Assembly (NCBI GenBank): GCA_029882515.1 | Contig: JAOUKN010000014.1 | Location: 1 to 34,879 of the forward strand | Source of the DNA: Candidatus Bathyarchaeota archaeon | GTDB lineage: Archaea > Thermoproteota > Bathyarchaeia > Bathyarchaeales > Bathyarchaeaceae | Direction: 5' to 3' | Length of the DNA: 34,879 nt | In this document: piece by piece, positions 11,463 to 28,867 of the stretch | How the letters are laid out: each line of letters begins with the position of its first letter | Numbering within the stretch: the stretch's first letter is position 1 | The notes under the pieces: generated by a model | Database searches by the model: none | Told to the model about the DNA's origin: nothing | Seen by the model: only the letters and a program-made list of their open reading frames with translations | Program-made: the position numbers and the translations under genes

Positions 11463-11738
11463 GGCTCTATTACCTCTAAAAACGTAGATTCCTTGTTAGA
11501 CTACATACGTCTATCTATTGATGTTAAAACTATGTTCTTTATACACAAAAAGAATTCTTAGAAGAATATTCTAAATCATGGTGCTATCTAGGAAAGTACG
11601 ATAAACTACCTACAGAATACAAGAAGCTCATACGCAGAGAAGAAATTATACACAAGAACAATGATACTTATACACAAATCATACCAAATCAAAATAACCC
11701 CAATAATCAAAGGAATTTGAAAAAGAGGATGTGTTTAA
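11463..11738 (+). pseudogene. Possible decayed ORF in two frames
   Basis: A frame from 11463 to 11561 reads protein-like sequence (…SLLDYIRLSIDVKTMFF…). A second frame open from 11528 to 11779 continues with KEFLEEYSKSWCYLGKYDKL and further basic, hydrophilic residues, as if one frameshift separated the two parts. Neither has a good start codon or ribosome site, and the second overlaps the next gene out of frame. The family is not recognised; it could be chance openness in AT-rich DNA. Confidence 0.25.
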
Positions 11739-12809
11739 TTGAGAAGATTGAATCACCAAGACTTGATAGATCTCGTTAATGGCGCTGCCATACTTTCAGC
11801 CGGCGGTGGCGGAGATCCTAAAATGGGACACAAAATTGTTGACACATTAATTGAGGAAGGTCATGTGGTAAACCTCGTTGATCCCAATGAGGTACCAAAT
11901 GATGCTGCAGTTACAAATTTCGCGTGTGTGGGAGCCACCACGACAGTGGGGTACGACAGTAACGCTGCGACCCAAACGGTTCACGCATTGGAACAATATG
12001 TAAAGCAAAGGTTTTACGCAGTAATTCCCGTTGAACTCGGAGGATTCAATACGTTGGCAGCCGTTGACGTGGCGGCTAGGCGAGGAATACCAATTGTCGA
12101 CGCTGATGGAGCAGGACGAGCGGTTCCAGAGGTTCATCTCAAGGTTTACACGATAGATAACATCCCGTTGGCACCTATGGTAGTAGCTGACCTTCACGCC
12201 CGAAATGTTGTCATAGTGAAGAAAACGCAAGATTCCAAGTCAGCGGAAAGGATTGCTCGAATCCTGGCCACAGAATGGGATCAAAGTGCCTACACAGCCC
12301 GAAGAATCTTAACGGGAAAACAAGTGAAAACCTCTCCAATCTTGCGTTCCCTTTCTACATCGATTAGGACTGGTACGTTACTGCGGAAGGCTGTGGAGCC
12401 AATAAAAGCAGTGCTCAAAGAAACTGGTGGCTTCAAACTTTTCGAAGGCAAGGTGAAAAAGATCGAAAGGAAGACGGAAGCTGGCTTTACATGGACAAGG
12501 ACCACACTGGAAGGAACACACGAATACAAAGGTTCAAGGTTTGAGTTTCAAGCGAAAAATGAGGTTCTCGTTGCCTATAAAGATAATAGACTTGTTGCCC
12601 TTGCCCCCGACATCATAGTGCCAGTACATCATGAGACGGGGAAATGCATTACGGCCGAAAAAATTGAGAAAGATGAAAAGCTGGTGATCTTGGGTATTCC
12701 AACTCCACAGAAGTGGAGAATCCCCAGAGGGCTGGAATTATGGAAAGATGTCCTAGAGCGATCTGCCATAAAGGAAACCTACACTCCAATTGAACAACTT
12801 AACAAGTAG
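11739..12809 (+). CDS. DUF917 family protein (S-methyl thiohydantoin desulfurase-like)
   Basis: A 356-residue protein of the DUF917 (PF06032) family. The hallmark N-terminal segment is AAILSAGGGGDPKMG, with VELGGFNT and the DADGAGRAVPE segment near residue 128; the last is the likely active-site region. Relatives are linked to hydantoin metabolism, and one group is described as S-methyl thiohydantoin desulfurase; the substrate here is unknown. The TTG start gives an N-terminus that aligns with the family (LNHQDLIDLVNGA). It lies alone, convergent with the redox operon on the right, and has normal coding composition despite the AT-rich spacer before it. Confidence 0.88.
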   Translation: MRRLNHQDLIDLVNGAAILSAGGGGDPKMGHKIVDTLIEEGHVVNLVDPNEVPNDAAVTNFACVGATTTVGYDSNAATQTVHALEQYVKQRFYAVIPVELGGFNTLAAVDVAARRGIPIVDADGAGRAVPEVHLKVYTIDNIPLAPMVVADLHARNVVIVKKTQDSKSAERIARILATEWDQSAYTARRILTGKQVKTSPILRSLSTSIRTGTLLRKAVEPIKAVLKETGGFKLFEGKVKKIERKTEAGFTWTRTTLEGTHEYKGSRFEFQAKNEVLVAYKDNRLVALAPDIIVPVHHETGKCITAEKIEKDEKLVILGIPTPQKWRIPRGLELWKDVLERSAIKETYTPIEQLNK

Positions 12810-12887: not shown

Positions 12888-13157
12888 CTAAGTAGCTTGA
12901 CCACATTTTAAAATGGCATCTTCAAGGTCTTTCTCGTCAAAATCTGGCGTGAGCTTGATTTTTCCATCTACTACCACACACATGTCTTGAACTCCATATT
13001 TAGAGGCTTCAGGCGACTTGGTAGACTTTGTCTGGACTTCTACGAAATCTTTAAACTTTGATGTTACCTGTCCCACTTTTTCCATAAGTGGCGCGAAGTT
13101 ACAGACGCAGGAGCCTAGAGGCACAAACACTTCAACTTTCACTTTGTTTGGTTTCAT
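12888..13157 (-). CDS. Small thioredoxin-like protein with CVC site
   Basis: An 89-residue protein with a compact thioredoxin-like layout: beta strand KVKVEVFVP, a redox or metal site at C17-V-C19, helix, strand FVEVQT, then YGVQDMCVVVDGKI where thioredoxins normally carry a cis-proline. Here that Pro is replaced and C60 is present; C85 lies near the C-terminus. It resembles the small redox-active disulfide proteins found with ars permeases, but the CxC spacing is unusual and could bind As(III) or another soft metal. It is the last gene of the eleven-gene minus-strand operon, one base after ccdA. Confidence 0.75.
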   Translation of the reverse strand: MKPNKVKVEVFVPLGSCVCNFAPLMEKVGQVTSKFKDFVEVQTKSTKSPEASKYGVQDMCVVVDGKIKLTPDFDEKDLEDAILKCGQAT

Positions 13158-13158
13158 T

Positions 13159-13863
13159 CTACCATCCTCCTAATACGTAGCCTATCATGACTATGCCAAT
13201 TACAACAAAGGCTATTCCAAAAATCTTTGTTAGCCATTCGCCTGCCACAGCAGTTCTCTTACTTACTGCTTTGCGTGCAGTAGCTAATAGCACACACAGT
13301 AATATGACCGGTAAGGCGTGACCAAGACCAAAAGCGAATAGCAAAAGTCCACCGTGAAAAGGTGTCGGCGCACTGAATATAGTTAGTAGTATGGCTGGCA
13401 GAACCAAAGATAAGGAGCATGGACCTAGGGCTAGTGAAATAACTACTCCGAAAAGAAATGAACCAGTTGCATAGTTGTATTTTGAAAAGCGTGTCAGAGC
13501 GGTTAACTTCAAAGCATTTACTCGTTCGGTAAGAGAGTTACTGGCATTGCTGGCAATCTTGATTCTCTTGAATAAGCCTATGTTGTTGATTCCAAAGAAT
13601 ATGAGAAGAAGACCTGCCATGCCGAAGAAGAATCGTGTGCTTGTCGGATCAGCTACGGGAATTAGAGAGGATACGGCGTATCCGAGAACAAAGAAAACCA
13701 GACACATCGCTATAGTGAAGCTGCAGCCAATTATGAAGCCCTTACGTATGCTCTTGCTGACGCCCAGGGCATATGTCAAGTAGACTGATATTAGAGCAAT
13801 AGAGCATGGTGAAAGAAAGGTTACGATTCCAAGAATGAATAAACCTAAAGACTCCTCAAGCAC
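13159..13863 (-). CDS. CcdA/DsbD-type membrane thiol-electron transporter
   Basis: A 234-residue membrane protein with about six membrane helices in two repeats. Each repeat carries the hallmark Pro-Cys: FLSPC (C20) in helix 1 and LALGPC (C149) in helix 4, the redox pair that moves electrons across the membrane in CcdA. The neighbours are thioredoxin-like proteins on either side, one cytoplasmic and one probably facing outward, a classic arrangement for such a relay. An ArsG-like permease, which belongs to the same superfamily, is an alternative given the ars context; the intact PC pair favours thiol transport. Confidence 0.88.
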   Translation of the reverse strand: MLEESLGLFILGIVTFLSPCSIALISVYLTYALGVSKSIRKGFIIGCSFTIAMCLVFFVLGYAVSSLIPVADPTSTRFFFGMAGLLLIFFGINNIGLFKRIKIASNASNSLTERVNALKLTALTRFSKYNYATGSFLFGVVISLALGPCSLSLVLPAILLTIFSAPTPFHGGLLLFAFGLGHALPVILLCVLLATARKAVSKRTAVAGEWLTKIFGIAFVVIGIVMIGYVLGGW

Positions 13864-13870
13864 CTTTTCA

Positions 13871-14575
13871 TCATGCTCCTAAAAGCTGACTGATCTTTGA
13901 CGACAGTGTATCAGCAGTTATCGCGTCAGTGTATACTTTGGCTACATCGAAGACTTTGTCTATGAGAACGATTGTTCCATCTTGTATAGAGTATTTCTTG
14001 TAGGCCTCAACTATATCCATTTTTTCATCGGCGTAGTCGTTTCCTAAGACCCAAGTGATACCGTAGTTTGCTCGGATTTGCGCAAGATCGCTATTTTGAC
14101 AGGTTGCTACAGCAACGGTGACGACAGTAACTGGTTTGCTACCACAATAGCCGTTACACACAGTTTTCAGTTGGTTAAGTTGGTGGTCGTTTATGGGATA
14201 GATTTGTCCATGGCAACCCACAGCCATAAAATGAATAGCAATCACCTTCCCACTAAATTGATTAAGAGAGAATTGAGTCCCGTCTATATCTCTCAGAGAG
14301 AAGTTTGGAGCTGAGCCAGTCGGTGGAGGATTGTTTCCTCCATTGCTGATTGGTGGAGGAAGTTGACTGTTATGGTATTGCCATGCTCCATATGCCACAA
14401 ATACTATGGCAATTAAGCAGATTGCCCCAAGTATTTTTCCTTTAGGCCATTTTCTCGGTTTTGCTCTTTCTCGTTCTCTCTGTATTTGATAAGTCTCTTG
14501 TGCCTTCTGCTGACTTATCTGTTTCTCTTTCTGTCTTTCCCTCCAACTTTTCTTCTTCCTTTTCTTCTTAGGCAA
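13871..14575 (-). CDS. Membrane-anchored redoxin (TlpA/AhpC-TSA type)
   Basis: A 234-residue protein with a very basic cytoplasmic N-terminus (1-47), one membrane helix (about 48-64), a Pro/Gly/Asn-rich linker (70-88), and a redoxin domain (PNFSLRDIDG onward) outside the membrane. The active-site position reads VGCHGQ (C121-x2-Q124), so the second Cys of a CxxC is missing. C140, C144 and C159 could supply the partner. It is the likely outward-facing partner of the adjacent CcdA protein. Peroxidase, metal-delivery or thiol-repair roles are all possible. Confidence 0.82.
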   Translation of the reverse strand: MPKKKRKKKSWRERQKEKQISQQKAQETYQIQRERERAKPRKWPKGKILGAICLIAIVFVAYGAWQYHNSQLPPPISNGGNNPPPTGSAPNFSLRDIDGTQFSLNQFSGKVIAIHFMAVGCHGQIYPINDHQLNQLKTVCNGYCGSKPVTVVTVAVATCQNSDLAQIRANYGITWVLGNDYADEKMDIVEAYKKYSIQDGTIVLIDKVFDVAKVYTDAITADTLSSKISQLLGA

Positions 14576-14585
14576 TTCTTCTCCC

Positions 14586-14831
14586 TCATAATGCTACATT
14601 TATTTTTTTGGGTCTGAACGGGTGACAATGGCTCTCATCAATTATTTTTATCAAATCAACCAGTATGTCCTGTGCTTCGGCTAACAAATCTTCATTCTTT
14701 TCATCTGTGGCTCGCAAGTTCTTGATGAACGACTCGATTTCCACTTTCAGTGACAGAAGGTCGCTGTTGCTCTCTTTACGCTTAGCATCTCTGTATTTCT
14801 TACGTATTTCCTCAAAACGTGCTCTATTCAT
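14586..14831 (-). CDS. Small helical protein, 81 aa
   Basis: A short, charged, mostly helical protein (ARFEEIRKKYRDAKRKES, then an acidic amphipathic helix to about residue 65) ending in SHCHPF, a possible metal ligand group. It lies 10 bases before the redoxin gene and 4 bases after the GcvH-like gene, so it is embedded in the operon. No family was recognised; it may be an adaptor or subunit. Confidence 0.7.
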   Translation of the reverse strand: MNRARFEEIRKKYRDAKRKESNSDLLSLKVEIESFIKNLRATDEKNEDLLAEAQDILVDLIKIIDESHCHPFRPKKINVAL

Positions 14832-14835
14832 TTAA

Positions 14836-15303
14836 TTACCTCTTTTTTCCCAGCTTCTCTTTTTCCGATTCGACCTTTCTTTTCAATACTTCAAAGTATT
14901 TTTGGGCATCCAGAAGATTTTCTCGGTCGCTTTCGAAGTCTTTGAGCTTCAAAACGGCGAACCATCCTTCTCCATACGGATCTTGATTTACAAGCTCAGG
15001 CCTTTCTGACAATTTCTCATTGATCTCGACTATGATGCCACTCACAGGCGATATCAAGTCAAGAATGGCTTTCGAGGATTCGAAAGAAGCCACTTCATCC
15101 AGTTGCTCAATTTCTGTGCCAACATCCTTGAATTCCACAAATATAATGTCAGTAGCCATGCTTTGAAGGAAATCCGTAATTCCCACCCTTGCTTTGGGTC
15201 CCTCTATTTTCGCCCAACAATCATTTTCATTGTAAAGCAGATCTTTTGGTACTCGAAAAGTCCATTTTAGAATCTTGAGTTGATAAGAGTCTTCGTTTTT
15301 CAA
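14836..15303 (-). CDS. GcvH-like lipoyl carrier protein
   Basis: A 155-residue protein with the full H-protein fold: a DCWAKIEGPKARVGITDFLQ segment, FVEFKDVGTEIEQ, then the lipoylation loop SFESSKAILDLISPVSG with K78 at the position of the lipoyl-lysine, and RPELVNQDPYGEGWF. A charged helical extension of about 35 residues follows. No gcvT or gcvP is nearby, so it probably does not serve glycine cleavage; H-like carriers of this sort (LbpA) also work in sulfur-oxidising Hdr-like systems. Its dihydrolipoyl dithiol would bind arsenite tightly, which fits the ars context. Role inferred, family certain. Confidence 0.88.
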   Translation of the reverse strand: MKNEDSYQLKILKWTFRVPKDLLYNENDCWAKIEGPKARVGITDFLQSMATDIIFVEFKDVGTEIEQLDEVASFESSKAILDLISPVSGIIVEINEKLSERPELVNQDPYGEGWFAVLKLKDFESDRENLLDAQKYFEVLKRKVESEKEKLGKKR

Positions 15304-15307
15304 CCAC

Positions 15308-15709
15308 TCACTTCCTTAAAATCTTGTCAATCAAGAGAGCTGTTTCATCAGCGATTTTTGCTGCAAGTTTTTCTCCTTCAGGACCAATTTCTGCAGATGC
15401 TTTTGGTTTCAACCCATACTTTTGAACACTTTGCGGAATGAATACTCTTCCTCTTATTCTACCTCCATTTTTTGCGACGATCTTTGTCGCACAACGTTCA
15501 GGACATCCATCAATCGTAATAACCGGATATTTCTTAATCCATTCAGAATGAGGGGTGGCACCAATAACAAGAGGGGGAACACAGACTAGGACAGAATCTT
15601 CTGGCTTCAACTCTTCCACTACCTTGAAAGCGCAAGCACGAGCCACCGAACCCAGTGGTTTGTCCATTCCTGCACAGGCGACAATTGCAACTTTTTCTTC
15701 TTTACTCAA
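15308..15709 (-). CDS. DGC-domain putative zinc-binding protein, copy 1
   Basis: A 133-residue member of the DGC family (PF08859). Four cysteines shared by all three tandem copies are C12 (ACAG), C43 (VLVCVPP), and C69 and C73 in IDGCPERCA; C26 is specific to this copy. The family is usually annotated as zinc-binding, and its biochemical role is unsettled. The three copies, separated by 14 and 6 bases, suggest a multi-subunit complex or three substrates. It lies 4 bases before the GcvH-like gene. Confidence 0.85.
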   Translation of the reverse strand: MSKEEKVAIVACAGMDKPLGSVARACAFKVVEELKPEDSVLVCVPPLVIGATPHSEWIKKYPVITIDGCPERCATKIVAKNGGRIRGRVFIPQSVQKYGLKPKASAEIGPEGEKLAAKIADETALLIDKILRK

Positions 15710-15723
15710 TTACTGACGCCTCT

Positions 15724-16137
15724 TCACTTTTTTCTTCCCAAGATTTCGTCGACTTTTGCCGCGATTTCCTCTGCAACTTTAATAGCAAGTTTCTTTTCTT
15801 CGGCACTGAGATTGTCTCTTGATTTCGTTTTTAGATGGGGATATTTTTTCATAATTTCTGAAACAACAATTACTGCAACTGGTTTGCCGCTGTATTCTTT
15901 GGTTCCAACCTCTGCACATCTTTTGTCGCATCCATCGACAGCAATCGTTGGAAATACTCTTGCGAAGGCTCTTTCATCCTCGCTTCCCGCAAGAAACAAC
16001 GGAAGGCATATAGTTACCGTATCGTGCGGTCTCAGTTTCTCCAACACAAGGCGGGTGGCGATGCGGGATATAGTGCCTTCAGGTAAATCCTCACCGCTGC
16101 AGGAGACTACTCCCACCTTGTCTTTTACTATAGTCAA
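15724..16137 (-). CDS. DGC-domain putative zinc-binding protein, copy 2
   Basis: A 137-residue paralogue of the flanking genes. The conserved cysteines are C13 (VSCSG), C44 (ICLPLF), and C70 and C74 in VDGCDKRCA, followed by the shared C-terminal helix ending SAEEKKLAIKVAEEIA. Its sequence differs enough from copies 1 and 3 that the duplication is old. It lies in the same operon with a 14-base gap to copy 1 downstream and 6 bases to copy 3 upstream. Confidence 0.85.
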   Translation of the reverse strand: MTIVKDKVGVVSCSGEDLPEGTISRIATRLVLEKLRPHDTVTICLPLFLAGSEDERAFARVFPTIAVDGCDKRCAEVGTKEYSGKPVAVIVVSEIMKKYPHLKTKSRDNLSAEEKKLAIKVAEEIAAKVDEILGRKK

Positions 16138-16143
16138 TCATAT

Positions 16144-16551
16144 TCACCTATTGTTGTTTATTTCATCGATTCGCCCAGCAATTTTTTCAGCTAAAATGCT
16201 GGCAAGCTTCAATCCTTTTGGACCCAACTCGGTAACACCTTCTGGTTTCAGACCCCTGTTTTCTCGCAAAACGTCGGTGACCACGAAGCTGGCTACGAGC
16301 TTGCCTTTAGAAGATTCTATGTTTTTGCGTGCACACTGAAAAGGGCAACCGTCGACAGATATGCAAGAGTTGTTTCTTGCAAGTTTTAGAACTGCTTCAT
16401 CCCTAATTGTTAACAGAGGAAGACAAACAGTAGTAGCCTCATTTGGCCGAAGCTTTTCCACAACTTCATACATGGCAGCTCTGCCAACGGTTCCCAAAGC
16501 CTTCCCAATTCCACTGCACGGAATTACGAATACCTTTCCATCCTTTAACAT
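16144..16551 (-). CDS. DGC-domain putative zinc-binding protein, copy 3
   Basis: A 135-residue paralogue. The conserved cysteines are C12 (IPCSG), C43 (TVCLPL), and C69 and C73 in VDGCPFQCA; C63 is extra. It shares the ELGPKGLKLA C-terminal motif with copy 1. It is the first of the three in transcription order, 11 bases after the ferredoxin gene. Confidence 0.85.
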   Translation of the reverse strand: MLKDGKVFVIPCSGIGKALGTVGRAAMYEVVEKLRPNEATTVCLPLLTIRDEAVLKLARNNSCISVDGCPFQCARKNIESSKGKLVASFVVTDVLRENRGLKPEGVTELGPKGLKLASILAEKIAGRIDEINNNR

Positions 16552-16562
16552 ACGACTACCTT

Positions 16563-16829
16563 CTAATAATCCCTAAGTTTCTTTATTAGGGCTAAGACTT
16601 CCTTCTTTTCTGGAAAATGTAATGCGTTGGGTGCGCATACTTTCTTACAAGAACGGCAAAAAACGACACAGTTGTTTGGGTTTTCAACAACCAATTTCTT
16701 TGGCTGTCCCTTTACTGCATATACTCTGTGAGGGCAGAACTTTAGGCATTGAGGGTCGTTGTCGCATAAATTGCATTTGTCGTAGTCTATTTTTGGATAC
16801 CATGGTATCTTGCTGCGAGGTACACCCAT
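16563..16829 (-). CDS. Two-cluster ferredoxin-type protein
   Basis: An 88-residue iron-sulfur protein. The first cluster site is C19-x2-C22-x5-C28-x3-C32-P and the second C54-x3-C58-x2-C61-x3-C65, so two [4Fe-4S] clusters with atypical spacing. It likely carries electrons between the HdrA-like protein encoded just upstream and the DGC or lipoyl proteins downstream, a role inferred from gene order. Confidence 0.85.
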   Translation of the reverse strand: MGVPRSKIPWYPKIDYDKCNLCDNDPQCLKFCPHRVYAVKGQPKKLVVENPNNCVVFCRSCKKVCAPNALHFPEKKEVLALIKKLRDY

Positions 16830-17229: not shown

Positions 17230-17400
17230 CTAGTTTTCTCTGCAATCAAGACAAAGATTACCGTCCACATTAGTCCAGAAGACTTTCCCACACTTTGCGC
17301 ACATAACTTTCTTCAACAAATCTTTCTTCGGTTTGGCCGCTCTTAAAACATCTGAGACTCTTTGAGTACATGCGCACGTGCCCTTGTCCCTTTCACTCAA
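17230..17400 (-). CDS. 56-residue zinc-ribbon protein (TTG start)
   Basis: A short gene that opens the minus-strand operon. The TTG at 17400 has a strong GGAGAGGT ribosome site 8 bases before it (17416-17409). The protein has C9-A-C11 near its N-terminus and a C-terminal zinc ribbon of C34-x2-C37 and C50-x2-C53 (CAKC, CLDC), ending REN. Its stop is 12 bases before the HdrA-like gene. It may bind zinc or arsenite; the CAC pair echoes the CVC of the neighbouring ArsR and thioredoxin-like proteins. No family was recognised. Confidence 0.75.
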   Translation of the reverse strand: MSERDKGTCACTQRVSDVLRAAKPKKDLLKKVMCAKCGKVFWTNVDGNLCLDCREN

Positions 17401-17443: not shown

Positions 17444-17479
17444 AACATATTTATATATTTTGTTTTGTTAATGTAACAA
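17444..17479 (-). promoter_or_regulatory. Promoter and operator-like sites of the leftward redox operon
   Basis: On the minus strand TATATAAATA (17457-17448) is a TATA box that would start transcription near 17426, about 26 bases before the TTG at 17400. It overlaps AACATATTTA (17444-17453, plus strand), which is identical to one half of the arsR operator. An inverted repeat TTGTTA-ATG-TAACAA lies at 17465-17479 between the two divergent promoters. Confidence 0.6.
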
Positions 17480-17496
17480 CTCACGTGCGAGCTGGA

Positions 17497-17514
17497 AACA
17501 TATTTAAATATGTT
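17497..17514 (+). promoter_or_regulatory. 18-bp perfect palindrome: ArsR operator overlapping TATA
   Basis: AACATATTTAAATATGTT is a perfect inverted repeat. Its centre is the TATA box of arsR (TTTAAATA, 17503-17510), so a bound repressor would block TBP. The ATG of arsR at 17539 lies about 30 bases downstream, giving a leaderless or nearly leaderless transcript. Confidence 0.75.
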
Positions 17515-17538
17515 CAAATCACTTTCAAGTGTCGAAAT

Positions 17539-17928
17539 ATGATATCTAAATCCAAAGTGAGCAAACGACTTAATCGATTGATAAAATCTGGGATTTGCCC
17601 TGCAGAAGATGCTCTAAAATATGCAGATGAGTTGAAGCAGATGGCCAATGAGATCGCAAGTGTTGAAGCCGCTGATAAGCAACACAGGTTTTTCAAGGCT
17701 CTTGCTGACGAGACACGTTTAAGGATTTTAAGTCTTCTCGAAGTCCGTGAGATGTGCGTGTGTGAGGTAATGGTCGCGTTAGACCTAACGCAACCCACTG
17801 CTTCTCATCACCTAGGTCTTCTAGAAAATGCAGGATTAGTCAAGGATAGAAAAGAAGGAAAATGGGTCTTTTATAGCCTCGCAGACCCCAAATTGCTTGA
17901 GGGCATGCATAAACTGAAAATTCTGTAA
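17539..17928 (+). CDS. arsR: ArsR-family metalloregulator
   Basis: A 129-residue winged-helix repressor. The ArsR metal-binding box reads VREMCVCEVMVAL with C73 and C75, the As(III)/Sb(III) ligands of classical ArsR, followed by the recognition helix TQPTASHHLGLLENAGLV and the wing RKEGKWVFYSL. A GTG at 17485 is also in frame, but it precedes the palindromic operator and TATA box, so the ATG at 17539 is chosen. An N-terminal helical extension (1-45) with C20 may add to dimerisation or sensing. It probably represses itself, acr3 and the leftward operon. Confidence 0.9.
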   Translation: MISKSKVSKRLNRLIKSGICPAEDALKYADELKQMANEIASVEAADKQHRFFKALADETRLRILSLLEVREMCVCEVMVALDLTQPTASHHLGLLENAGLVKDRKEGKWVFYSLADPKLLEGMHKLKIL

Positions 17929-18074: not shown

Positions 18075-19109
18075 TTGACAGAGAAAAAGGAAGCCAAGCT
18101 CGGGATTTTTGAGAAGTACCTTACCTTGTGGATTGCCATCTGCATCGTTGTTGGCCTCTTACTAGGAAGATTTTTCCCAAGATTTGGGCAGTATCTGGAC
18201 TCTTTGAAATTCGCCAAATTGTCGATTCCGATTGGTATCTGCCTTTTTTTCATGATGTACCCAACAGTTGTAGGCATAGCCTTCAGCGACATTAAGAAGG
18301 CGGTGAGAAAGCCAAGACCAATGCTCCTCACAATAATTGCAAATTGGGTCATCGCTCCCCCCATAATGACTCTCTATGCAAACCTGCTTGTTGCTGATCC
18401 AATTCAAAGAGCAGGCATCATTCTTCTCGGTATGTCTCCTTGCACTGCAATGGTTATGTGGTGGATGCTGCTTGCTAAGGGAGACCTAGCCCAGGGACTA
18501 ATAAATACAGCTATCAATGCATTGCTGATGGTTATTCTCTATGCGCCTATGTCAGCATTCTATTTAGGAGTGAGTGGTATTCCGATTCCATGGGATTTGA
18601 TCGCCATCAGTGTAATCATTTTCATAGCTCTTCCAGTGTCTCTAGGGGCGGCTTCCAGAAAGCTGCTAATAAGAAGGAAGGGGAAGGAGTGGTTTGAGTC
18701 CACTTATCTTGAACTTGTACGCAGAATATCCATTATCGCGCTCTTGCTTACTCTAATCGTCATGTTTTCCTTTCAAGGAGAGATCATCCTCAACAATCCG
18801 CTCCTAGTAGCTTCTCTAGCAGCTCCAAATTTGCTCCATTACGTTACAATGATCGCAATCACTTATACAACCTCCTGGCTGTCAAACTGGGACTACGCAA
18901 CATCAATAGACACCACTCTCATCGGGTCAAGCAGCCATTTCGAGGTCGCCATCGCAGTCGCAACAACACTTTACGGTCTCAATTCAGGCGCTGCCTTAGC
19001 TACAGTGATAGGACCTCTAATGGAAGTTCCGCTAATGCTGGCTCTCGTAAGGGTTGGTCTACGAACGCGCCATCTGTTTCCAAGGAATAAAAGGAAAGCC
19101 AATATATGA
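18075..19109 (+). CDS. acr3: ACR3-family arsenite efflux permease
   Basis: Exports As(III) using the proton-motive force. The 344-residue protein has about ten membrane helices. Family marks are PIGICLFFMMYPTVVGIAF, the conserved Cys in SPCTAMVMWW (C123), and the C-terminal GLNSGAALATVIGPLMEVPL. The TTG start is supported by AGGAGA 9 bases upstream. The canonical RCIAMV segment is slightly diverged here, so antimonite or another thiolated anion cannot be excluded as substrate. It lies 146 bases after arsR with its own promoter. Confidence 0.9.
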   Translation: MTEKKEAKLGIFEKYLTLWIAICIVVGLLLGRFFPRFGQYLDSLKFAKLSIPIGICLFFMMYPTVVGIAFSDIKKAVRKPRPMLLTIIANWVIAPPIMTLYANLLVADPIQRAGIILLGMSPCTAMVMWWMLLAKGDLAQGLINTAINALLMVILYAPMSAFYLGVSGIPIPWDLIAISVIIFIALPVSLGAASRKLLIRRKGKEWFESTYLELVRRISIIALLLTLIVMFSFQGEIILNNPLLVASLAAPNLLHYVTMIAITYTTSWLSNWDYATSIDTTLIGSSSHFEVAIAVATTLYGLNSGAALATVIGPLMEVPLMLALVRVGLRTRHLFPRNKRKANI

Positions 19110-19288: not shown

Positions 19289-19495
19289 TCATGGTCGCTC
19301 AGCGACGAACGCTATCTTGACATTGGTCTTGTAAGAAGCGATCTTGTTTTTCTCAACCTTAGCAGTCCAGCCGACAACATCCATTCCCACGATGTTTCTC
19401 ACCGTTTTAGAAGCTTCAGTTAATGCTTTTTCAGCGGCCTCCTGCCACCCTTCCGTAGAAGAGCCAACAAGTTCTATAATCTTTACAATAGCCAT
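19289..19495 (-). CDS. Dodecin (flavin-binding)
   Basis: A 68-residue dodecin that forms a hollow dodecamer storing flavin. It matches the family throughout: KIIELVGSSTEGWQEAAEKA, then ASKTVRNIVGMDVVGWTAKV and YKTNVKIAFV. The ATG at 19495 is preferred over 19501 because GGAGG (19509-19505) is then 9 bases away. It is a single-gene unit, convergent with acr3. Confidence 0.92.
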   Translation of the reverse strand: MAIVKIIELVGSSTEGWQEAAEKALTEASKTVRNIVGMDVVGWTAKVEKNKIASYKTNVKIAFVAERP

Positions 19496-25903: not shown

Positions 25904-28867
25904 GTGCCGGTATTACTAATATCTTTTCTAACGTTTTCGATTTTGTCGAGTCTGGGAGGACAGATATCTTCTGTCGGTGCGCAACTATTTCCTTTAGGTT
26001 ATGGAGCTAGTCTTACCGGTGATGTTGATGACAAAGGTGTTGATACCGATGGTGATGGGCTTTTCGATTACTTGCAGATCAGCGTAGAGGTGAACATTAC
26101 TTTTCCTTGGATACTATACAATGTTGAAGTGTCCAAGCTTCTGGACCATGAGGATTCCTCTCTCAGATATATACACGTTCAGCAATCTGAAATCGTATAT
26201 CCCGAAACTGGTATTCAACTTGTCAACCTCTCCGTTTATGGTCCAATGATCTACAATTCTGGTTTAGACCCGGAAAAAATCTACCAGATCACATTATCTG
26301 AAACGTATCCTGAGTATTCCTCATATTTCGGCTTCAATTGGTACACCGATGTTATTGACACCATATCAAACATACCTCTATCAAGAGAGTATTCATACAT
26401 GGAGTTTGACCCACCCGTCACAAATGTGGAAGCGAAGTTTGTTGTGTATCCAGATGGGCGAGTAGTGATTGGTGGAGGGTTAAATTCGACCCCTACAATG
26501 TCACCCTTTGTAGGTATGCCCTCATTGAAAGATCTGGTAATGCAGGGAGATGTAAGCCTCATGAGGACAGGACTTCGTACGGTGATTTCACAGAATAGTA
26601 CAGTCTTATTGTCTCCTGAATACGCCTCAAAATTTCCACTGAATTCAACAACTATGTCAATGCTTGAAACATATTCTGCTGATGTTTTTGACACAAGGAC
26701 CAATTGCACGGTAATTCTCCCCTCATATATTACTTCGAAAGTTCCCTTCAACTCTACGGATGCAAGCCTAAGCGTAACGTATTCGGATGGTCTTTTCACT
26801 ACAGAGATTGGCTGCTCAACAACTGTACCAACAACCTTTCTACCTTTCGATTTTGAAGTGCCTTCAGAAAGCGAACAACTATTTGACTTCGTATGTTTTC
26901 TGCTAAACTCAACCGACGTCTCAATAGTCGGAGAATATCAAAGTGGTGAGCTAAGTGGCAATATGACAATAAGCATGTTGCCAGGTTTTGCATTAGGCAA
27001 CTTGGACTTGGCTTTTCAAGGAAACCAAACCAACCTTTCTCTAAGTGGCAACATAAGAGTCCTGTATGGCAGTTTCTATGGTCTTGAACTGAGTGAAGAA
27101 AACCTTGACATGATACTTCTACAATTGAACTCCATCCAAGGAACAGGGTCAGGGTCCCTTTATGAAATGACAAACGGAGTGCTTGAATGCACAAAATTGA
27201 ACGCTACGAAGACTCCGATAACCGACCCTTCAGGTTCAGAGGTCGATTTCGAAGTGGATATTCATGGAGACTTTCTTGAAGCATTCGCAAACGCTATCTT
27301 GTCTCTATACTTATCTCCATACGTGCCCCCAGAAGAGAGAGAACAACTGCAAACACTGATGTACTCAGCATTAAACACCACTTTATGTTCGGTTCAAACA
27401 ACCTCATTCGAGCTAGGATACACTCATTCCACAAGACAAGCCTCCATGGAATTCACGTTTGTTGACGACGTTCAAAGCCTTGTCGATGGGTTTCTTCCTC
27501 TTGTACCACAAATCCACCCCTCAATCCCTGAAACTCTTCCAGACATATTGAACAAAACGTTTTCCTGCACCAAAACTGCATCCGTCCAAATGACCTATAC
27601 CAAAACAGACGGAAGATTTGCTTTCGAAACAACCGCAGTAGCAGAGGACCTTGAGCAGGTGAGGGAGGAAGTGACTCAACTAATTGTAGAAACACTGCAA
27701 AATGTCACTTTGATGCCGCTGGAAATTATGCCAACTGAAATAAGAATGTTGGTAGAGTCGCTTCTAAACACCACCTACTGCTCTCTAGAGTCATACGAAA
27801 GTTCATTAACCTATGAAAACGGCAGGCAAGAGGTGAGAGAAACCTACACAATCCGAGACGACCTAAACGCTGAACTGAACCACGTAAAAGATATCTACCT
27901 CCAATACATGCTAGCACAATACAGTCGCTACCACATGCCAGTACCATGGCAACACTCCTTCATAAACCAAACAGAAATAGACATCAGAAGTCTTACAGCC
28001 AGCTACAATTTCACAGAAACACTGATGAAGGGAAGCATAGATGGACTCGGACTCTGGGCACCCATAGACATCATCAACAGTACAAGGTTCCAACTCAGAA
28101 GATTCCTTAATCTCGCCAGTGAGATGAGCCCCTATGATCGACCTAGAAAAGGAGAAAAATTCAAAATAACGATCGAAGGAGGCAGCAACCTCACCCATTC
28201 GATTGTATTATTCGCACCTGCCACTGTCCCAGAACCAGACGAAACTGCTTCTGACAGGAGCCGCATGATTTGGTACAATCAGACTCCCAATAGCGTCATG
28301 GATATGATGTTCGACATCGAAGTCAAATCGGGCGTGGGCGAATTCGAAATAGCGCACCCTGAATTCGTCAGCGAAGCCAACCCCTATATAGCGAATGCAA
28401 CAGAAAATGTTGGGACCGTTATCGAAATAACTGGAATCTCAAAACCTGCTAAACTATATGTCGCAAATCTAACAGAGCCCCCTGAGGGAGTTGAACCTCC
28501 TCCAAACACATACAAGGTTCTCGGAAAATACGTATACATCCAATGTATTGAGACTGACGTAAATGTGAACGCCACCATACGCATGGACTACACTCCAGAG
28601 CAGTTGAGCGAAATGGAACTAGACGAAGAAACCTTGAAAATCCATTGTTGGAACGCTACGCTAGGTGTATGGGTTCCTATTGAAACTCATGTGAACACCT
28701 CAGAACATTATGCATGGGCAACGATCAGTCACTTCAGTATTTGGGCTCTCATGGGGCAGCCTAGTGCTGCGCTAATCTGGAGTGAACCGTTGTTCTGGAT
28801 TCTGATAGTTGCTATTGGTTTGGTGATTACAGCTGCTGCTTACGCTCTAATGAAAAAGAGACGATAA
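25904..28867 (+). CDS. Large cell-surface protein with repeats and C-terminal anchor, 987 aa
   Basis: An exported protein with a signal peptide (about 1-26, cleaved near SSVGAQ), a Ca-binding-type loop (DTDGDGLFDYLQI, about 47-59), and a long glycosylated ectodomain with many NxT/S sequons. A degenerate unit of the type LNST-x-S...TYS-x-G recurs near residues 245, 282, 335, 490, 549 and 620. The C-terminus has a membrane helix (about 960-980) and a KKRR stop-transfer. A putative wall domain ends in ISHFSIWALMG. It probably belongs to the S-layer or envelope. The GTG start is the only one available after the last in-frame stop. The neighbouring ABC exporter may be its partner. Confidence 0.85.
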   Translation: MPVLLISFLTFSILSSLGGQISSVGAQLFPLGYGASLTGDVDDKGVDTDGDGLFDYLQISVEVNITFPWILYNVEVSKLLDHEDSSLRYIHVQQSEIVYPETGIQLVNLSVYGPMIYNSGLDPEKIYQITLSETYPEYSSYFGFNWYTDVIDTISNIPLSREYSYMEFDPPVTNVEAKFVVYPDGRVVIGGGLNSTPTMSPFVGMPSLKDLVMQGDVSLMRTGLRTVISQNSTVLLSPEYASKFPLNSTTMSMLETYSADVFDTRTNCTVILPSYITSKVPFNSTDASLSVTYSDGLFTTEIGCSTTVPTTFLPFDFEVPSESEQLFDFVCFLLNSTDVSIVGEYQSGELSGNMTISMLPGFALGNLDLAFQGNQTNLSLSGNIRVLYGSFYGLELSEENLDMILLQLNSIQGTGSGSLYEMTNGVLECTKLNATKTPITDPSGSEVDFEVDIHGDFLEAFANAILSLYLSPYVPPEEREQLQTLMYSALNTTLCSVQTTSFELGYTHSTRQASMEFTFVDDVQSLVDGFLPLVPQIHPSIPETLPDILNKTFSCTKTASVQMTYTKTDGRFAFETTAVAEDLEQVREEVTQLIVETLQNVTLMPLEIMPTEIRMLVESLLNTTYCSLESYESSLTYENGRQEVRETYTIRDDLNAELNHVKDIYLQYMLAQYSRYHMPVPWQHSFINQTEIDIRSLTASYNFTETLMKGSIDGLGLWAPIDIINSTRFQLRRFLNLASEMSPYDRPRKGEKFKITIEGGSNLTHSIVLFAPATVPEPDETASDRSRMIWYNQTPNSVMDMMFDIEVKSGVGEFEIAHPEFVSEANPYIANATENVGTVIEITGISKPAKLYVANLTEPPEGVEPPPNTYKVLGKYVYIQCIETDVNVNATIRMDYTPEQLSEMELDEETLKIHCWNATLGVWVPIETHVNTSEHYAWATISHFSIWALMGQPSAALIWSEPLFWILIVAIGLVITAAAYALMKKRR

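Follow-up and report, generated by a model that had tools for sequence, protein, structure and literature searches.

The described protein nearest in function to the one analysed here is LbpA, a GcvH-like lipoyl carrier that is essential for sHdr sulfur oxidation, is not exchangeable with GcvH and has its own ligases (PMC6067878). LbpA has two conserved cysteines, near the N- and the C-terminus, which are absent from some archaeal LbpAs (PMC6067878). Operons for arsenic resistance, built from ArsR-Acr3, ArsC, ArsM and ArsD, form another set of described systems, and in the open-access literature searched we found none that includes a lipoyl carrier, an HdrA-N-type protein or a DGC protein. The same kind of search found no paper on the function of the DGC family (PF08859). 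That arsenite binds dihydrolipoyl dithiols tightly is long-established biochemistry, and arsenic toxicity is largely due to the trapping of dihydrolipoyl groups. Here, starting from a contig of a Candidatus Bathyarchaeota archaeon, we describe an apparently so far undescribed conserved module composed of HdrAN, a ferredoxin, several DGC proteins and a lipoyl carrier, which occurs in Bathyarchaeota, Bacillota and Bacteroidota.

The window, that is the whole stretch of DNA analysed (34,879 nucleotides), holds the module in a minus-strand operon with intergenic gaps of 1 to 14 bases. On the plus strand, arsR and acr3 are divergent from this operon, and the divergent promoter is common to both. 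The features are as follows, with the minus-strand genes in operon order:

17230..17400, minus strand: 56-aa Cys-rich (zinc-ribbon-like) protein that opens the operon, TTG start; conserved in loci L075, L095-L097 and L099
16840..17217, minus strand: HdrAN, stand-alone homologue of the HdrA N-terminal-type [4Fe-4S] domain, by hhalign against the genome's own HdrA
16563..16829, minus strand: small 4Fe-4S ferredoxin (Fd88) with Fer4 matches; adjoins HdrAN in archaea and bacteria
16144..16551, minus strand: DGC1, four-cysteine DGC protein (PF08859)
15724..16137, minus strand: DGC2, four-cysteine DGC protein (PF08859) with the conserved cysteines and a confident alpha/beta model
15308..15709, minus strand: DGC3, four-cysteine DGC protein (PF08859, 54 bits), counterpart of the DGC half of the bacterial fusions (L106-L108, L116-L123)
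14836..15303, minus strand: GcvH-like lipoyl carrier, 155 aa (GCV_H, 126 bits; own clade, 100/99)
14586..14831, minus strand: 81-aa conserved hypothetical protein downstream of the carrier, an ORF with relatives in several archaeal loci
13871..14575, minus strand: TlpA/ResA-like membrane-anchored thioredoxin-fold protein (ResA family, 29 bits), conserved in archaeal loci
13159..13863, minus strand: CcdA/DsbD-type permease (DsbD_TM, 54 bits; weak ArsG match, 42 bits, cutoff 200)
12888..13157, minus strand: thioredoxin-like protein of 89 aa with CxC, at the end of the operon; weak TrxC match, conserved downstream of CcdA
17485..17928, plus strand: ArsR-family metalloregulator with an MCVCEV motif (HTH_5; NF033788, 108 bits, cutoff 55)
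18075..19109, plus strand: Acr3 arsenite efflux transporter (TIGR00832, 325 bits, cutoff 283)

The bacteroidal counterpart of the CcdA/DsbD-type permease reaches an ArsG score of 314 (cutoff 200). Elsewhere in the window, acr3 is followed on the minus strand by a gene for dodecin (flavin-binding; 19289-19495), and a 987-aa Thr/Ser-rich protein (25904-28867, plus strand), with internal repeats visible by eye and no Pfam match, is probably secreted or membrane-anchored.

LbpA is the nearest functional analogue of the carrier. Each is a dedicated, single-domain GcvH-like carrier with a lipoyl lysine that apparently acts outside glycine cleavage; both are tied to an HdrA-type Fe-S protein, have a lipoate ligase in some loci and an ArsR-type regulator nearby. 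Unlike LbpA, however, the carrier belongs to a module that has only an HdrA-N-type domain, with no HdrB or HdrC among the module ORFs; it lacks the paired N- and C-terminal cysteines, falls in a separate clade in the best tree and has DGC proteins as partners. Its neighbours are acr3, arsC and arsM, whereas those of LbpA are genes of sulfur oxidation. Membership in the LbpA group was rejected, given the lack of HdrB/HdrC and of the paired cysteines. With GcvH the carrier shares the fold, the lipoyl lysine and general motifs such as PYGEGW, but its operon lacks gcvT and gcvP, it forms a distinct clade, its C-terminus is extended and in bacteria it is fused to a DGC domain. As in ars operons, ArsR and genes for arsenite export or methylation lie beside the module. 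The DGC proteins have the four conserved cysteines of PF08859, including the DGC motif; here they are present in several copies and, in bacteria, joined to a lipoyl carrier. HdrAN aligns with the N-terminal-type Fe-S domain of HdrA, cysteines included, but stands alone, without the flavin (thioredoxin-reductase-like) domain and without HdrBC.

The carrier gene starts with TTG, a start supported by relatives that begin at the same point, with ATG there in L076 and L100. The PYGEGW segment (residues 109-114) and the lipoyl lysine (K78, within SFESSKAI) are both intact, and the protein exceeds the Pfam GCV_H cutoff of 22 as well as the equivalog cutoff of NCBIfam gcvH (127 bits, cutoff 116). The first-pass annotation, which had reported a GcvH-like carrier with K78 and PYGEGW at this position, agrees with these matches and coordinates. 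K78 is invariant among the 13 archaeal relatives, and the lipoyl lysine is retained in all 11 bacterial DGC-carrier fusions. The carrier contains a single cysteine (C29), and its C-terminus has none. For one bacterial fusion (L108) a structure was predicted with a pLDDT of 88; its second half resembles solved H-proteins with a TM of about 0.9, while a pTM of 0.54 makes the mutual placement of the two halves uncertain. Judged on this fusion, the modelled fold of the carrier is indistinguishable from that of GcvH.

It had also been claimed that no other glycine-cleavage gene is present. This is true of the window, in which none was found besides the carrier, but not of the genome: on contig C106, gcvT overlaps a second gcvH, and gcvPA/gcvPB are located on contig C14. 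Since the genome has this separate housekeeping set, the carrier is an extra, specialised copy, probably apart from glycine cleavage. Family searches of the genome, which is 88% complete, gave five GCV_H matches in total. In three of these (two on contig C145, one on C95), the place of the lipoyl lysine is taken by methionine or tryptophan. At least one further GCV_H protein was present in each of the 12 module genomes tested.

The lysine-less proteins form a group of their own. Those at L007:11105-11719 and 11716-12345 (contig C145), with L162 and L163 in relatives, are GcvH-like with M or W in place of the lipoyl lysine. Their N-terminus resembles, by eye, a ribbon-helix-helix DNA-binding domain and their genes stand upstream of an HdrA-like gene array; they are possibly non-lipoylated sensors or regulators.

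A tree of 74 H-domain proteins, including 13 archaeal and 10 bacterial module carriers, placed all 23 module carriers in one clade (100/99), within which the archaeal and bacterial carriers were sister clades (100/91 and 100/99). The LbpA-type proteins, recognised from gene context alone (LplA-like and LipS-like neighbours), formed another clade (100/99), and the lysine-less H-like proteins a third (100/100). Grouping the archaeal carriers with the gcvT-linked H-protein of the window's genome was rejected (AU p=0.002). A tree that unites the module carriers with LbpA, the latter being assigned by context, was not rejected (p=0.17), although the best tree separates them. The module clade persisted when the more divergent carrier of L195 was added (98/99), and conclusions on deep branching are limited by long branches. 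A comparison with GcvH of this kind had been proposed in the first-pass annotation; gcvP and gcvT do exist elsewhere in the genome, but the carrier lies outside the housekeeping branch and the genome holds a second H-protein, so the refuting outcome named there was not observed. On the strength of the clade, the AU test, the fusion to DGC and the presence of other H-proteins, an identity of the carrier as the housekeeping GcvH was rejected.

The module is conserved in 24 loci, 13 archaeal and 11 bacterial. Among 300 sampled genomes of the phylum, only the window's genome and two others (G059, G285) showed a carrier gene together with DGC genes. In a scan of 84,980 species genomes, 14 related loci came up; 11 belong to Bathyarchaeota MAGs and three to bacteria (two Bacteroidota and one Desulfitobacteriaceae). 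The phylum of the Desulfitobacteriaceae locus was then represented by 399 genomes, in which an HdrAN profile search gave 24 matches. The nine strong ones all had the complete module with a DGC-carrier fusion; the other 15 were weaker, and the 11 of these that were examined, together with one Bacteroidota match, all consisted of the ferredoxin-HdrAN pair alone. A strong HdrAN match was also present in 20 of 257 genomes of the window's class, some of them being minimal HdrAN-ferredoxin sets. Apart from L098, every locus with sufficient contig reach contained the core of HdrAN, ferredoxin, DGC and carrier. DGC-carrier fusions occur in every one of the 11 bacterial loci (L106-L108, L116-L123), and in the first three of these the DGC domain is N-terminal and the carrier forms the C-terminal half, followed by two more DGC genes. 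Complete archaeal loci have three to five DGC copies. The carrier of L195, one of the strong HdrAN matches in the window's class, has an intact lysine and its gene is in line with those for HdrAN, the ferredoxin, two DGC proteins, arsR and acr3. Plasmid carriage of the fusion was rejected, as no plasmid record had a DGC-carrier fusion and, among the matches listed, only the GcvH half was covered.

Several loci depart from the common layout. The module of L098, on a chromosome-level contig (CP070828.1), is broken: only about 45 aa remain of DGC3 and the genes upstream of it are gone, with carrier, TlpA, CcdA and thioredoxin still in place. The MAG DVMM_8 has three module copies (L102, L103, L104), each followed by an extra ferredoxin-like gene, which in L102, the copy examined in full, encodes a zinc-ribbon-like tail. 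A small GCGCG-rich protein follows the module in L118-L121, which have no dihydrolipoyl dehydrogenase and may be a sulfur-type variant. Next in line is a cysteine desulfurase-family gene, confirmed for L118 (TIGR01977) and recognised by sequence for L120 and L121. At L122:12155-13807, a 550-aa chain combines a ferredoxin-like N-terminus, a DF-family (seleno)protein stretch and an arsenite methyltransferase domain.

HdrAN (125 aa) has no Pfam family, no other domain and no flavin domain. Compared with HdrA of the same genome by hhalign, it gave a probability of 91% (E 1e-6) with the cysteines aligned, and from this alignment to the HdrA N-terminal-type domain it is expected to carry an Fe-S cluster. 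Across 45 homologues of the DGC proteins, C13, C70 and C74 are invariant and C44 is nearly so. Their predicted fold is alpha/beta and confident (pLDDT 92), with the cysteines at the ends of successive strands, a position from which they would presumably face one site. No fold relatives of DGC were found at E<=0.001 among PDB or viral models. A relationship between DGC and HdrAN was rejected by profile comparison (probability 1%).

Genes related to the lipoyl cofactor accompany the module in some loci. In four of the 24, all bacterial (L108, L116, L117, L122), HdrAN is directly preceded by a gene for dihydrolipoyl dehydrogenase; three of the products score 495-535 bits against TIGR01350 (cutoff 409), and that of L117 was recognised by blastp, with 60% identity to its counterpart in L108. 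Lipoate ligase was found in three of 24 loci, namely L117 (TIGR00545, over cutoff), L122 (blastp) and the archaeal L100, where two LplA-like genes (LplA-B_cat) come after the carrier. A gcvT-gcvH-gcvP cluster is present in the L108 genome as well; judging by sequence, it apparently has a dihydrolipoyl dehydrogenase and ligase of its own, which makes the module copy an extra one. The archaeal lipoyl synthase LipS2, of confirmed identity, was present in eight of nine other archaeal module genomes tested; the window's own genome, 88% complete, gave no match.

The claim that the carrier gene sits in an arsenic locus is borne out by an acr3 above the NCBIfam cutoff and by an arsR metalloregulator gene, both divergent from the operon. 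Within 8 kb of the carrier, the 24 module loci contain arsR in 18 cases, acr3 in 12, arsM in three and arsC in three; where HdrAN was in view (n=19), arsR was found in 18 and acr3, arsM or arsC in 15. None of 14 control loci, the surroundings of housekeeping, LbpA-type and lysine-less H-proteins, had acr3, arsM or arsC within 8 kb. The ferredoxin-HdrAN pairs without carrier (L124-L135) had arsR in 12/12, acr3 in 10/12 and arsC in 8/12. All these counts used identical blastp thresholds for the module, control and pair sets, and the acr3, arsM and ArsG assignments were confirmed by NCBIfam in representative loci only; the ArsC of L108 is a clear match below the NCBIfam cutoff. The pairs, from a Bacillota-type phylum and one Bacteroidota, are an unannotated two-gene unit that is arsenic-linked by itself. 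The tie between a specialised carrier and arsenic, suggested earlier from the window, has thus proved to be conserved across two domains of life, and at the level of sequence both the arsenic link and the dedicated carrier are well supported. ArsC-like LMWPc genes are present in 11 of 14 module genomes tested; therefore, the module does not simply replace a missing arsenate reductase, and such a role as a stand-in for ArsC was rejected as not general.

Two elements near the divergent promoters may bear on the mode of regulation:

17497..17514, no strand: perfect 18-bp palindrome AACATATTTAAATATGTT, putative ArsR operator near arsR; recurs in other loci
17444..17461, no strand: second copy of the palindrome with 2 mismatches, in the module promoter, by sequence match

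These are two matches in the window against 0.04 expected in shuffled sequence. The pair is found again in L095 and L096, and in a variant form in L075, L097 and L105. With its core ATTTAAAT, which resembles an archaeal TATA box, the palindrome may do double duty as operator and TATA element. We infer that the module would be controlled by ArsR through these putative operators, common to both divergent promoters.

In the reading that we prefer, and to which we give about an even chance, an arsenic module under ArsR control uses the protein as its dedicated lipoyl carrier, and the dihydrolipoyl arm and the DGC proteins reduce or chelate arsenic. The carrier would be lipoylated at its lipoyl lysine, and As(III) would release ArsR. 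Ferredoxin and HdrAN would keep the lipoyl arm in the dithiol form, as would NADH via dihydrolipoyl dehydrogenase in some bacteria. The swinging dihydrolipoyl arm and the DGC cysteine sites could then reduce arsenic species and/or chelate the resulting As(III), which would be passed on to Acr3 for export or to ArsM for methylation. Somewhat less probable, though still a serious candidate, is an unrecognised pathway of archaea and anaerobic bacteria in which a lipoyl arm moves between Fe-S/NADH donors and DGC sites, reducing or dethiolating arsenic and delivering As(III). A natural lipoyl-domain variant is reported to be causally tied to the arsenic response in C. elegans (PMC6453569), which fits a lipoyl-arsenic mechanism. 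The first-pass annotation had offered a redox shuttle similar to LbpA, and this idea stands in outline, with dihydrolipoyl dehydrogenase and ligase in some bacterial loci and Fe-S partners in all. Kinship with LbpA is not supported, although the tree test does not reject a joint clade. Of its suggestions, which also included a carrier of As(III), that of a target of arsenic is the least likely, given the position of the gene within the resistance operon.

There are rival readings of these observations. Thioarsenates are common in sulfidic anoxic habitats, and the lipoyl arm could instead carry sulfane sulfur, a role proposed for LbpA, with the module adding sulfur to arsenic or stripping it off while ferredoxin and HdrAN reduce the persulfide. 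The parallels with sHdr-LbpA are an HdrA-type Fe-S domain, ligases beside some carriers and ArsR-type control (PMC6067878, PMC12423496), and the gene neighbourhoods add genes of the cysteine desulfurase family (L117 and L118, where TIGR01977 confirms them, and L120 and L121, where ORFs look alike by sequence), a rhodanese in L116 and an apparent rhodanese-like protein in L107. The desulfurase-family genes of four bacterial loci and the rhodanese-like genes of two could hint at sulfur. However, we saw no HdrB/HdrC in module loci and recognised no rhodanese or desulfurase beside archaeal modules, and the carrier lacks the two conserved cysteines of LbpA and falls in a separate clade; we regard sulfur transfer as unlikely, yet still a serious rival. 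We hold the same doubt about a non-redox As(III) chaperone, comparable to ArsD in its service to ArsA, in which the dihydrolipoyl and DGC cysteines would sequester As(III) for Acr3 and the Fe-S proteins would only protect thiols. The four conserved cysteines of each DGC protein, the several copies per complete archaeal locus, the fusion of carrier to DGC and the adjacent acr3 all suit such a role. Yet it would make the dihydrolipoyl dehydrogenase superfluous, and also the conserved HdrAN/ferredoxin pair, although this pair is arsenic-linked alone in 12 loci.

The carrier could also be a surplus housekeeping GcvH, or donate lipoyl groups to other enzymes, and just happen to lie within an arsenic island. 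This would explain the score above the gcvH equivalog cutoff and the GcvH fold of the bacterial fusion model. A clade of its own that spans archaea to bacteria, the rejected grouping with the housekeeping protein of the same genome, the fusion to DGC and the separate H-proteins in 12/12 module genomes argue against it, and this reading, largely refuted, is very improbable.

The reading that we prefer, in which a protein of a family that normally serves glycine breakdown has become the dedicated lipoyl carrier of an arsenic module, points to lipoic acid, a dithiol cofactor, as a microbial means of coping with arsenic. If a resistance module has recruited a lipoyl carrier, the very group that the poison classically attacks would have been put to use against it. 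The DGC-carrier fusions of bacteria, in some cases with dihydrolipoyl dehydrogenase and ligase adjacent, allow this to be tested outside uncultured archaea. If true, the reach of lipoic acid would extend past carbon metabolism and sulfur oxidation, the DGC family and a stand-alone HdrA-type Fe-S domain would gain a function, and the module would serve to trace arsenic chemistry in anoxic sediments.
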